64,000 nt of DNA from Bacteroidales bacterium (GTDB taxonomy: Bacteria > Bacteroidota > Bacteroidia > Bacteroidales > UBA932): positions 62,001 through 126,000 of the forward strand of contig JAFTWQ010000043.1 of NCBI GenBank assembly GCA_017465225.1. Reading direction: 5' to 3'. Under the pieces are notes generated by a model. That model saw only the letters and a list, made by a program, of their open reading frames with translations, did no database searches and was not told the origin of the DNA. The position numbers and the translations under genes were made by a program. Below are positions 35,718 through 41,570 of this stretch, in pieces; the stretch's first letter is position 1, and each line of letters begins with the position of its first letter.

Positions 35718-35789
35718 AGCGGGTAACGGGGGTCGAACCCGCGGCCCTCGGCTTGGGAAGCCGATGCTCTACCACTGAGCTATACCCGC
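35718..35789 (-). tRNA. tRNA-Gly (anticodon CCC)
   Basis: The minus strand folds into a complete cloverleaf: acceptor stem GCGGGTA/TACCCGC, D arm with AGCTCAGTGGTAGAGC, anticodon stem TCGGC/GCCGA around loop TTCCCAA, and T arm GCGGGTTCGACCCCCGT. The anticodon CCC reads glycine codon GGG. The 3' CCA is not encoded, as is usual in many Bacteroidetes tRNA genes. No other tRNA is adjacent. Confidence 0.95.
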
Positions 35790-37608: not shown

Positions 37609-37683
37609 AAGATCCTTCACTCCGTTCAGGATGACAGATTCACAGCCCACCAGATGTCATTCTGAGCGGAGCGAAGAATCTTT
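37609..37683. repeat. REP-like inverted repeat in the dnaK leader
   Basis: The arm at 37609-37636 (with CTCCGTTCAGGATGACA) and the arm at 37655-37683 (with TGTCATTCTGAGCGGAG) are imperfect reverse complements of about 28 bases around an 18-nt spacer. The sequence type, known from many Bacteroidetes genomes as a dispersed intergenic repeat, would form a long hairpin 35 nt before the dnaK start if transcribed. Confidence 0.8.
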
Positions 37684-37717
37684 AAACAGAAGAATAAATT
37701 TAAAAATTATAGGAATT

Positions 37718-39613
<1,896 letters not shown>

Positions 39614-39628
39614 TATATATAAATAATG

Positions 39629-39666
39629 CGAAAGAGGACGATTCTTAACGGATCGTCCTCTTTTGC
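39629..39666 (+). terminator. Intrinsic terminator of dnaK
   Basis: AAAGAGGACGAT (39631-39642) pairs with ATCGTCCTCTTT (39652-39663) around a 9-nt loop, followed by further T. It lies about 17 nt after the dnaK stop. Confidence 0.88.
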
Positions 39667-39675
39667 ATTGATTTC

Positions 39676-39706
39676 TTTGGATTATGCAGGAGTATTGCTA
39701 TATTTG
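39676..39706 (+). promoter_or_regulatory. Full Bacteroides-type promoter of the trpB2 attenuator
   Basis: TTTG at 39676-39679 and TATATTTG at 39699-39706 are separated by 19 nt and match TTTG-N19-TAnnTTTG. Transcription should begin within a few bases of 39711, almost at the leader-peptide ATG (39713). Confidence 0.8.
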
Positions 39707-39712
39707 TTGACA

Positions 39713-39790
39713 ATGAAGAACAACACATCATACATTTCACTCCGATGGTGGCGTCTGATTGGATTTTCCGGTCAGGCTCATACGGTATGA
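39713..39790 (+). CDS. Putative trp leader peptide with tandem Trp codons
   Basis: A 25-codon frame reads MKNNTSYISLRWWRLIGFSG plus QAHTV and ends with TGA. Codons 12 and 13 (39746-39751) are both TGG, a rare pair in so short a frame. It sits between a full promoter and an intrinsic terminator, ahead of a tryptophan synthase gene, which is the layout of a trp attenuator. The start codon lies only about seven bases after the -7 box, so it would be translated with almost no leader; I see no ribosome binding site. The peptide itself is thought to have no role beyond ribosome stalling. Confidence 0.7.
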   Translation: MKNNTSYISLRWWRLIGFSGQAHTV

Positions 39791-39858
39791 TGTAATTTAT
39801 TCTGAATAATTATCATTATCTATAATTGAAGACTGTCCGGTACAAGGATGGTCTTTTT
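39768..39858 (+). promoter_or_regulatory. Transcription attenuator: antiterminator segment and terminator before trpB2
   Basis: AAGACTGTCC (39829-39838) pairs with GGATGGTCTT (39846-39855), including two G-U pairs, around a 7-nt loop, and T continues to 39858: an intrinsic terminator 18 nt before the trpB2 start. CCGGTCAG (39768-39775), inside the leader frame 17 nt after the Trp codons, can pair with CTGTCCGG (39833-39840) at seven of eight positions and would break the terminator. A ribosome stalled on the Trp codons would leave that segment free; one that reaches the stop at 39788 would cover it. This fits classical attenuation; folding energies were not computed. Confidence 0.7.
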
Positions 39859-39876
39859 CATTTAAATCCAGGGGTT

Positions 39877-41193
39877 ATGAGACAGAAAAGATTTTTCCTG
39901 CAGGAAAACGAAATTCCTGCCCAGTGGTACAACATCATGGCAGACATGAAGAACAAGCCTATGCCGATGCTGAATCCGGTGACAAGAAAGGCTGTTACTG
40001 TCGAAGATCTTTCACAACTATTCAGCGAAGAATGTTCCAGACAGGAACTGAACACTACTGACAGGTGGATTGATATTCCGGAAGAAGTACGGGAGAAATA
40101 CACCTATTACAGAAGCACACCTCTTGTCAGAGCATATGGACTGGAAGAAGCGTTGGGAACACCTGCCCATATCTACTTCAAGAATGAAAGTGTCAGTCCT
40201 GTCGGTTCCCACAAGCTTAACTCCGCTCTTGCGCAGGCCTATTACTGCAAGAAAGAAGGAGTGACGAATATTACGACTGAAACGGGAGCCGGACAATGGG
40301 GAACTGCTCTGGCATATGCATCGAAGGTGTTCGGTCTGGAAAGCGCGGTATATCAGGTAAAGATCAGCTACGAGCAGAAGCCATACCGCCGCAGCATGAT
40401 GCAGGTTTTCGGAGCACTTGTAACCCCGTCTCCGTCTATGTCAACAAGAGCCGGCAAGGACATCCTCACCAAGATGCCGAATCATCAGGGTTCTCTTGGC
40501 ACCGCCATTTCAGAGGCCGTAGAGCTGGCAAAGATGACTCCGGGATGCAAGTATGCATTAGGTTCTGTGATGAGCCATGTGACATTGCACCAGACTGTCA
40601 TCGGACTGGAAGCGGAGAAGCAGATGGAGATGGCTGGAGAATATCCGGACACAGTCATCGCATGTTTCGGAGGCGGCTCCAACTTCGGCGGGCTGTGTTT
40701 TCCTTTCATGAGGCACAACCTGTCTGGCAAGAGAGACACCCGTTTCATCGCAGCCGAGCCGGCATCATGCCCAAAGCTCACAAAAGGAAAGTTCGGATAT
40801 GATTTCGGTGACGAGGCCGGATACACTCCCCTGTTGCCGATGTTCACATTAGGACATGACTTCATGCCTGCAAACATTCATGCCGGAGGCTTGAGATATC
40901 ATGGCGCAGGCGTCATCGCATCACAGCTTCTTAGCGAAGGGATGATTGAAGCTGCAGACATCACACAGACCGATGCATTCAAGGCGGGTTGTCTTTTTGC
41001 GGAAGCAGAGGGTATCATTCCAGCTCCGGAATCATGCCATGCCATCGCAGCCACTATTACCGAGGCTGCGAAATGCAAGGAAAGCGGCGATGCGAAAACC
41101 ATCCTTTTCTGCCTTTCCGGCCATGGGCTCATAGACATGTCTGCATATGATCAGTTCCTGGCAGGCAACATGACGGATATCAGCTTCAAATGA
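39877..41193 (+). CDS. trpB2: TrpB2-type tryptophan synthase beta subunit (PLP enzyme)
   Basis: This 438-residue enzyme joins indole and serine to tryptophan. Length, the N-terminal extension (KRFFLQENEIPAQWYN) and stretches such as YYRSTPLVRAYGLE, YFKNESVSPVGSHKLNSALAQ and TETGAGQWGTALAYA mark the TrpB2 branch, not the TrpB1 that pairs with TrpA. K113 in GSHKLNS binds PLP, and GGGSNFGG holds its phosphate. I place the start at 39877 since the upstream Met at 39826 lies in front of and translates through the attenuator hairpin. No trpA or other trp gene is adjacent, so indole salvage is a likely role. The Trp-codon leader in front supports a real link to tryptophan supply. Confidence 0.93.
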   Translation: MRQKRFFLQENEIPAQWYNIMADMKNKPMPMLNPVTRKAVTVEDLSQLFSEECSRQELNTTDRWIDIPEEVREKYTYYRSTPLVRAYGLEEALGTPAHIYFKNESVSPVGSHKLNSALAQAYYCKKEGVTNITTETGAGQWGTALAYASKVFGLESAVYQVKISYEQKPYRRSMMQVFGALVTPSPSMSTRAGKDILTKMPNHQGSLGTAISEAVELAKMTPGCKYALGSVMSHVTLHQTVIGLEAEKQMEMAGEYPDTVIACFGGGSNFGGLCFPFMRHNLSGKRDTRFIAAEPASCPKLTKGKFGYDFGDEAGYTPLLPMFTLGHDFMPANIHAGGLRYHGAGVIASQLLSEGMIEAADITQTDAFKAGCLFAEAEGIIPAPESCHAIAATITEAAKCKESGDAKTILFCLSGHGLIDMSAYDQFLAGNMTDISFK

Positions 41194-41570
41194 CTGATCA
41201 GCATGAGCTATTGAAAATCACAATTCCCTTATAATCAATATTTTAGGATATCATTGGTGGGCTAAATCCCCCACCAATAGCACTCTAAAATCCCATGGAT
41301 CAACAAGTTATATTTAACACCTCTTATTCACAAGGATGAAAGAATCAATGTTTTCCTATAGAAGTCGGAAGACCTGATGGTTTCACAAGTCAGGAAACAA
41401 CATATCTAATTATCAAGGGGTTAGATTCAGGGCTACGAATCAAGCGAAAGCATCACCCTTCGCACAACCCCCTATGGATCAACACATTAGACTCACAAAA
41501 CCCAAATGAAACTTTATTTTTTGCTTTGAGACAGGTTTTACATATCTTCGCAGACAGAAAAACGAAGACC
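41194..41570. other. 377-nt intergenic region with a hairpin and a direct repeat
   Basis: No gene is seen. A perfect 9-bp inverted repeat ATTGGTGGG/CCCACCAAT (41253-41261, 41270-41278) lies 60 nt after trpB2 but lacks a T-run, so it is at best a weak terminator. ATGGATCAACA occurs twice in the same direction (at about 41295 and 41473). No promoter with both elements is visible for the next gene. Confidence 0.5.

Follow-up and report, generated by a model that had tools for sequence, protein, structure and literature searches.

The trp attenuator of enterobacteria is characterized by tandem Trp codons, by alternative stems between its elements (1:2, 2:3 and 3:4), and by a terminator placed before the first gene. 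The leader described here, which lies in a 64,000-nucleotide stretch of DNA from a Bacteroidales bacterium (the window), has tandem Trp codons, three predicted stems and a terminator before the gene in common with it, but it precedes a single putative salvage gene, trpB2, rather than a biosynthetic operon, and its leader AUG lies almost at the predicted transcript start. The nearest known element is Bacteroid-trp (RF01692), listed as a candidate cis-regulatory RNA by Weinberg in 2010 (PMC2864571). It is reported to resemble the E. coli trp leader in structure and to be conserved upstream of the trp operon of F. psychrophilum (PMC6414381). The window leader shares with Bacteroid-trp the Bacteroidota host and a WW or WWW leader frame, whereas RF01692 precedes genes of trp biosynthetic operons and the window leader precedes a lone trpB2. 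Among 247 genomes of the class we obtained 25 matches to RF01692. Judged by eye, the downstream gene is trpB1, trpD or trpE in 24 of the 25 (read from DNA without a called open reading frame for L182–L184 and from an internal frame for L189; L and G numbers designate loci and genomes), L197 is cut off, and trpB2 follows none of them. By HMM, trpB at L180 and trpD at L191 score above the cut-off, and the best hit at L186 is trpE, below the cut-off. The window gave no match to RF01692 at the gathering threshold (49 bits), nor did its leader at E <= 10, and membership of this family is ruled out by both score and gene context (a lone trpB2, no operon). When 20 leader-bearing loci of the window's family were scanned, only L118 matched, at 40 bits against the threshold of 49, so these leaders and those of the operons may descend from one ancestor. 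The window likewise had no match to Trp_leader (RF00513, threshold 41 bits), for which two family relatives score 32.4 (L115) and 25.5 (L140), below that threshold.

Two further predictions come near to this locus. In C. diphtheriae, attenuators have been predicted before trpB1EDGC and trpB2A (PMC1262725). A predicted Trp attenuator before a gene called trpB2, whose family membership there is by name alone, is common to both cases, with the difference that this trpB2 forms an operon with trpA and the window trpB2 stands alone. For the chlamydial trpRBA operon a putative trpL and an attenuator have been predicted (PMC7755916, PMC3937554), although one of these sources notes that the trpL of C. 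trachomatis is of unusual length, lacks consecutive Trp codons and has not been validated (PMC7755916). Salvage of Trp from indole under tryptophan control is the likeness between the two; the chlamydial operon differs in being controlled by TrpR and YtgR and in carrying trpBA together with trpR, with no lone trpB2. The open-licence literature searched yielded no report of an attenuator in front of a lone Bacteroidota trpB2. An earlier sequence-only reading of this DNA had been aware of no described case for trpB2, which the papers searched bear out for a lone trpB2 but not more broadly, as the predictions for trpB2A and trpRBA were already in print. The mechanism is already known before Bacteroidota trp operons, and it is the target gene, trpB2, that is new.

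The leader in front of trpB2

The gene at 39877–41193 (+ strand) encodes a TrpB-like PLP enzyme of 438 aa, whose scores of 687 bits for NF009057 and 595 bits for TIGR01415 exceed the respective cut-offs of 366 and 519. Among solved structures, this TrpB2 comes closest to 6hul, 4qys and 6hte, which carry the annotation tryptophan synthase beta chain 1 or 2. The gene 5' of the leader is dnaK (ORF 37631–39613), which is also found 5' of trpB2 at L003, L205, L206, L004 and L207. Because dnaK is followed by a terminator-like hairpin of its own (39625–39669, + strand), distinct from the leader terminator, the second terminator at 39829–39858 is not needed for dnaK. On the other side, the next sizeable + strand ORF starts at 41526, 332 nt past trpB2, and could be co-transcribed with it. 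Several leaderless trpB2 genes (L005, L007, L018, L084–L087 and others) have a neighbourhood other than the dnaK one of the window, and the gene end that precedes several leaderless copies resembles what we take to be a succinate dehydrogenase membrane subunit.

A putative Bacteroidetes-type promoter, recognized by its match to the consensus, occupies 39676–39706 (+ strand), with TTTG at 39676–39679 and, after a spacing of 19 nt, TATATTTG at 39699–39706, a box of the TAnnTTTG type. Such boxes were located by eye and by script; a sigma-70 scan, whose scope does not include Bacteroidetes promoters, gave 4 against 3.7 in shuffles, no excess. A leader frame of 25 codons, MKNNTSYISLRWWRLIGFSGQAHTV, begins 6 nt past the -7 box (39713–39790, + strand). 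Transcription usually begins some 4 nt past such a box, so the transcript would be almost without a 5' untranslated region. From this consensus promoter, the window leader probably has hardly any 5' untranslated region, and such a box stands 5-6 nt 5' of the leader ATG in the window and in the five leader-bearing relatives nearest to it, L205, L206, L003, L213 and L212. Across the 84 of 88 leaders that have a box, the distance from box to ATG ranges from 5 to 50 nt, which makes the near-leaderless start a feature of subgroups.

The ribosome is predicted to stall at the tandem Trp codons TGG TGG (39746–39751, + strand), and a single base separates the second of them from element 1, the 5' arm of the 1:2 hairpin (39753–39763, + strand). 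Element 1 pairs over 11 bp with element 2 (39767–39777, + strand; -13.7 kcal/mol), whose core CCGGTCAG (39768–39775) is the predicted antiterminator strand. The core of element 3, CTGTCCGG (39833–39840, + strand), can have either of two partners, element 2 in the antiterminator or element 4 in the terminator; 7 of the 8 positions of CCGGTCAG pair with it, with a U-U mismatch. The 3:4 intrinsic terminator (39829–39858, + strand) has a 10-bp stem (39829–39838 with 39846–39855), a 7-nt loop and a U tract, and ends 18 nt before the trpB2 ATG (39877). These parts, including the promoter coordinates, the leader frame with its two TGG codons, the 7-of-8 pairing and the size and place of the terminator, agree with the sequence-only reading. 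The run of five T that it assigned to the terminator (39854–39858) does not survive in that form, since two of these T belong to the stem, which leaves a short and weak free tract of UUU, followed by CAUUU. Its view that order and spacing fit ribosome-controlled attenuation is borne out, as all elements are in place, and the 11-bp 1:2 hairpin comes in addition to those it had described.

Only 1 of 200 shuffles folds as well as the leader RNA (z -2.55), and none of 200 does so for the part 5' of the terminator (z -2.90). The predicted stabilities of the two competing structures are about equal (-13.1 kcal/mol for the antiterminator 2:3 duplex versus -12.3 kcal/mol for the terminator). Masking of element 1, as a ribosome on the Trp codons would bring about, makes the 2:3 antiterminator the predicted minimum-energy fold as long as element 4 is absent; with element 4 present, equilibrium prediction favours the terminator. 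Antitermination must therefore act kinetically, as it does in classical attenuation.

Taken from the sequence, this arrangement is very probably a classical ribosome-mediated transcription attenuator that controls the lone trpB2 via charged tRNA-Trp. RNA polymerase would start a few bases 5' of the leader AUG, and a ribosome would begin the 25-codon frame nearly at the 5' end of the transcript. When charged tRNA-Trp is ample, the ribosome would pass both UGG codons, either the 1:2 hairpin or the ribosome itself would keep element 2 from element 3, and the 3:4 terminator would form, leaving trpB2 untranscribed. Under a shortage of charged tRNA-Trp, it would halt at UGG-UGG and cover element 1, such that element 2 could pair with element 3 ahead of the synthesis of element 4 and the polymerase could enter trpB2. 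TrpB2 would then form tryptophan from the indole of neighbours in a cell without TrpA and TrpC. It is extremely improbable that a different RNA device (a T-box, a free-tryptophan riboswitch or a TRAP-like protein) takes the place of a stalled ribosome in sensing tryptophan here, as this would leave unexplained a tandem UGG frame at the classical place. Nor does the window contain any Rfam family at threshold apart from one tRNA: no T-box, riboswitch or known Rfam leader was found in it, and the leader at E <= 10 returned only sub-threshold snoRNAs and one sRNA. The tRNA gene, the sole Rfam match in the window at the gathering threshold, lies at 35718–35789 on the - strand.

Conservation of the alternative stems

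The leader frame is retained in L003, L205 and L206, whose TrpB2 proteins are 89-90% identical to that of the window, and occurs in a shorter form in L212 and L213. We aligned 17 leaders, those of the window and 16 relatives, after removal of the variable middle, and they have the core TGGTGGCGTCTGA ... CGGTCAGGC ... CTGTCCG in common. For the outer 6 pairs of the 1:2 stem, 92.2% of the cells are paired and 3 of the 6 pairs show changes on both sides. The corresponding values are 93.5% for the 3:4 stem, with both-side changes in 3 of 10 pairs (11 cells), and 87.4% for the 2:3 stem, with both-side changes in 2 of 7 pairs (3 cells). Slid controls reach 12-48%, 35-61% and 18-46% for 1:2, 3:4 and 2:3, respectively. 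Without guidance, RNAalifold recovers 1:2 and 3:4. In L040 and L234, columns 11, 29 and 63, at which elements 1, 2 and 3 contribute bases to one shared position, change jointly, turning a U-A pair into C-G in 1:2, A-U into G-C in 2:3 and U-G into C-G in 3:4. This is what would be expected for mutually exclusive stems, and it is probably a single event. Related genomes, which the sequence-only reading had singled out beforehand as the place to look, thus retain the Trp pair, the terminator and the alternative stems with compensatory changes.

The 2:3 stem calls for a more restricted statement. Its main double change stems from L040 and L234, its centre is a U-U mismatch in most leaders and a standard pair in 3 of the 17, and 4 of its 7 pairs are invariant. 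The number of pair types is not above that in shuffles, 426 of 500 of which reach the same number, and one slid control has a covariation score of 0.087 versus 0.083 for 2:3. When a simple duplex of element 2 with element 3 was evaluated over 88 leaders, by a script that chose a wrong WW frame in L009 and L152, 28 stood out against shuffles at p <= 0.05 (median z -0.92), with p values of 0.115 (L205) and 0.16 (L003) in near relatives of the window; in leaders of the NNNFWWRTC type the duplex does not stand out. Because the pairing is conserved but these covariation and duplex tests are weak, we limit the claim for the antiterminator to the window's subgroup, where the predicted structure is well conserved with thin covariation; some other subgroups give no convincing 2:3 stem. 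Among the features of a trp-type attenuator, the tandem-codon leader frame and the terminator before the gene are present, and mutually exclusive 1:2, 2:3 and 3:4 stems are predicted in the window and its subgroup.

The small frame might instead encode a functional microprotein or a trans-acting peptide, with an incidental terminator, and a trans-acting trp leader peptide, peTrpL, has indeed been reported (PMC7298713). However, beyond the Trp run the leader peptides differ in both sequence and length, from MANNWWWRLQL to MKNNTSYISLRWWRLIGFSGQAHTV, and the constant parts are the tandem Trp codons and, inside subgroups, the RNA stems. A product acting as a peptide is thus exceedingly unlikely, and attenuation remains the reading that we adopt.

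Recurrence of Trp leaders before trpB2

TrpB2 relatives were drawn from three sources: the contigs of named genomes (80 loci), 149 genomes of the window's family, 106 of which had some match (TrpB1 included), and 300 genomes of the window's genus, 259 of which had a match. Upstream DNA was obtained for part of the TrpB2 matches. After removal of duplicates, including the window copies L001 and L083, the set comprised 245 trpB2 upstream regions, none shorter than 200 nt and many of them closely related. A small frame was sought within 350 nt, and a terminator was called below -7 kcal/mol. Of the 245 distinct regions, 101 contain such a frame encoding WW or WxW and 93 one encoding WW; 88 of these 93 have a called terminator (L251 and L263 being doubtful, as they resemble chance or an overlap with the preceding gene). 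Among the five WW regions without a called terminator, L111 and, by eye, L234 do have one. In a nearly identical test applied to 753 other ORFs (at least 150 aa, from the named loci), only 6 passed; set against 88 of 245, this argues that the leader is not due to chance. At L263, the sole WWW frame, from 144 to 69 nt before trpB2, seems to share sequence with the gene before it, at that gene's 3' end, and it may be a chance frame or a leader that has become joined to this gene. At L079 and L082, which carry the leader MKSYLNNKFWWWCPMTN, the terminator lies 75 nt 5' of trpB2, a distance that would accommodate a second signal.

Within the family sample, 39 of the 70 fetched trpB2 loci pass the strict test and 31 fail; compared with the controls this gives a Fisher p of 5e-41, a value to be read with the caveat that related sequences are not independent. 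The window's own genus contributes 3 of 8 passing loci to this sample, with 5 of 8 failing. Eight of the 72 distinct regions from named loci pass, all eight from MAG records. Outside the strict test, L091, L092 and L097 have FWR(T/A)WFW frames with terminators. The sequence-only reading had extended tryptophan control of the TrpB2 branch to Bacteroidales; the parts of an attenuator are indeed there, but these counts delimit a narrower scope. The leader on a lone trpB2 is recurrent but patchy within one family of uncultured gut Bacteroidales, whose named relatives include Candidatus Cryptobacteroides.

Patchiness is also apparent in the phylogeny of TrpB2. The tree has 169 rows, 59 of them marked as leader-bearing, some by hand: nine loci missed by the strict script were listed by hand as leader-bearing and entered the tree where their gene was of sufficient length, and L251 and L263 were labelled as having none. 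The trait requires at least 17 changes, 13 of them forced by well-supported branches, against a mean of 49 in shuffled data, indicating that the leader has been repeatedly gained or lost. These changes, the low frequency among named loci and the lack of a leader in the close relatives L004 and L207, despite 84% identity and the shared dnaK neighbourhood, are what one might anticipate if a constitutive promoter-proximal terminator merely stood beside a chance WW frame, which would give low basal trpB2 expression without regulation by Trp. The excess over control ORFs is at odds with such a coincidence, and leader and stem sequences differ between genera, yet the Trp pair recurs. In addition, the window's subgroup retains both the 1:2 and the 2:3 stem along with the terminator. 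We therefore consider a chance frame highly improbable and retain ribosome-mediated attenuation as the explanation.

A covariance model built on 14 leaders was searched in 151 genomes of the genus. Matches at E <= 0.1 occur in 84 of the 151 genomes and are mostly weak. At E <= 2.9e-5 there are 28 matches, and all 28 lie directly upstream of trpB2 (some cut by a contig end). Six of these strong matches are in the model alignment (the window, L205, L213, L247, L274 and L304) and 22 are outside it, some of the latter being near copies of model members (L318, L333); L312 is the window's own locus. The next two best matches to the model, L340 and L341, have no trpB2 nearby. The window's own genome holds one strong match, the window leader (E 4e-19), and the next has E 0.017.

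The metabolic setting of a lone trpB2

The function of TrpB2 is less well understood than that of TrpB1. In the family of the window, trpA (PF00290) was detected in 27 of 149 genomes, 25 of them above the cut-off, and trpC (PF00218) in 24 of 149. Neither gene was found in the window's genome, which is 78% complete, so that its gene absences are weak taken alone; neither was found in ten other sampled congeners that are 98-100% complete, seven of which have trpB2. The window's genome also yielded no TrpB1-like match, and its sole other match to TIGR01415 scores 24.7 bits, against about 170 bits for a true TrpB1 (L180), such that trpB2 is probably the sole tryptophan-forming enzyme there. Given the absence of trpA and trpC, the window TrpB2 is probably an indole-salvage enzyme, which would take its indole from outside. 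The presence of a leader shows no significant link with the absence of trpA and trpC (33 of 54 vs 6 of 16 loci, p = 0.15).

A report on B. thetaiotaomicron fits indole salvage by trpB2, the likeness lying in the TrpB2 label rather than in a comparison with the window protein. BT_RS23500, termed TrpB2-like by the authors, is 59% identical to TrpB2 of Thermotoga (PMC11535334). It aided an E. coli delta-trpA strain only near wild-type E. coli, which the authors read as use of secreted indole (PMC11535334). For marine bacteria, it has been argued that attenuation is superfluous for detached trp genes (PMC2395257). A detached trpB2 that bears a conserved, predicted tryptophan-sensing switch argues that supplying tryptophan is the job of TrpB2. 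It leads to the prediction that consumption of indole, a host-active metabolite, is confined in these gut bacteria to times of tryptophan shortage.

Where the trp operon is present in the family, it tends to be preceded by a leader of the same kind: with genes assigned by eye, 17 of 20 operon stretches (L347–L349, L351–L361 and L364–L366) have a WW leader before trpB1 or trpE, 16 of them with a terminator. We speculate, with confidence evenly divided for and against, that the Trp attenuator is a portable device in this mostly Trp-auxotrophic family, standing before the trp operon where the operon is kept and acquired or built anew more than once in front of a lone indole-salvage gene, in near-leaderless form in the window's subgroup. 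Auxotrophs equipped in this way would sense their own charged tRNA-Trp before consuming the indole of their neighbours. Three genomes (G437, G584 and G622) each carry two near-full-length TrpB2 genes, and in G622 one copy (L309) has a leader and the other (L310) has none.
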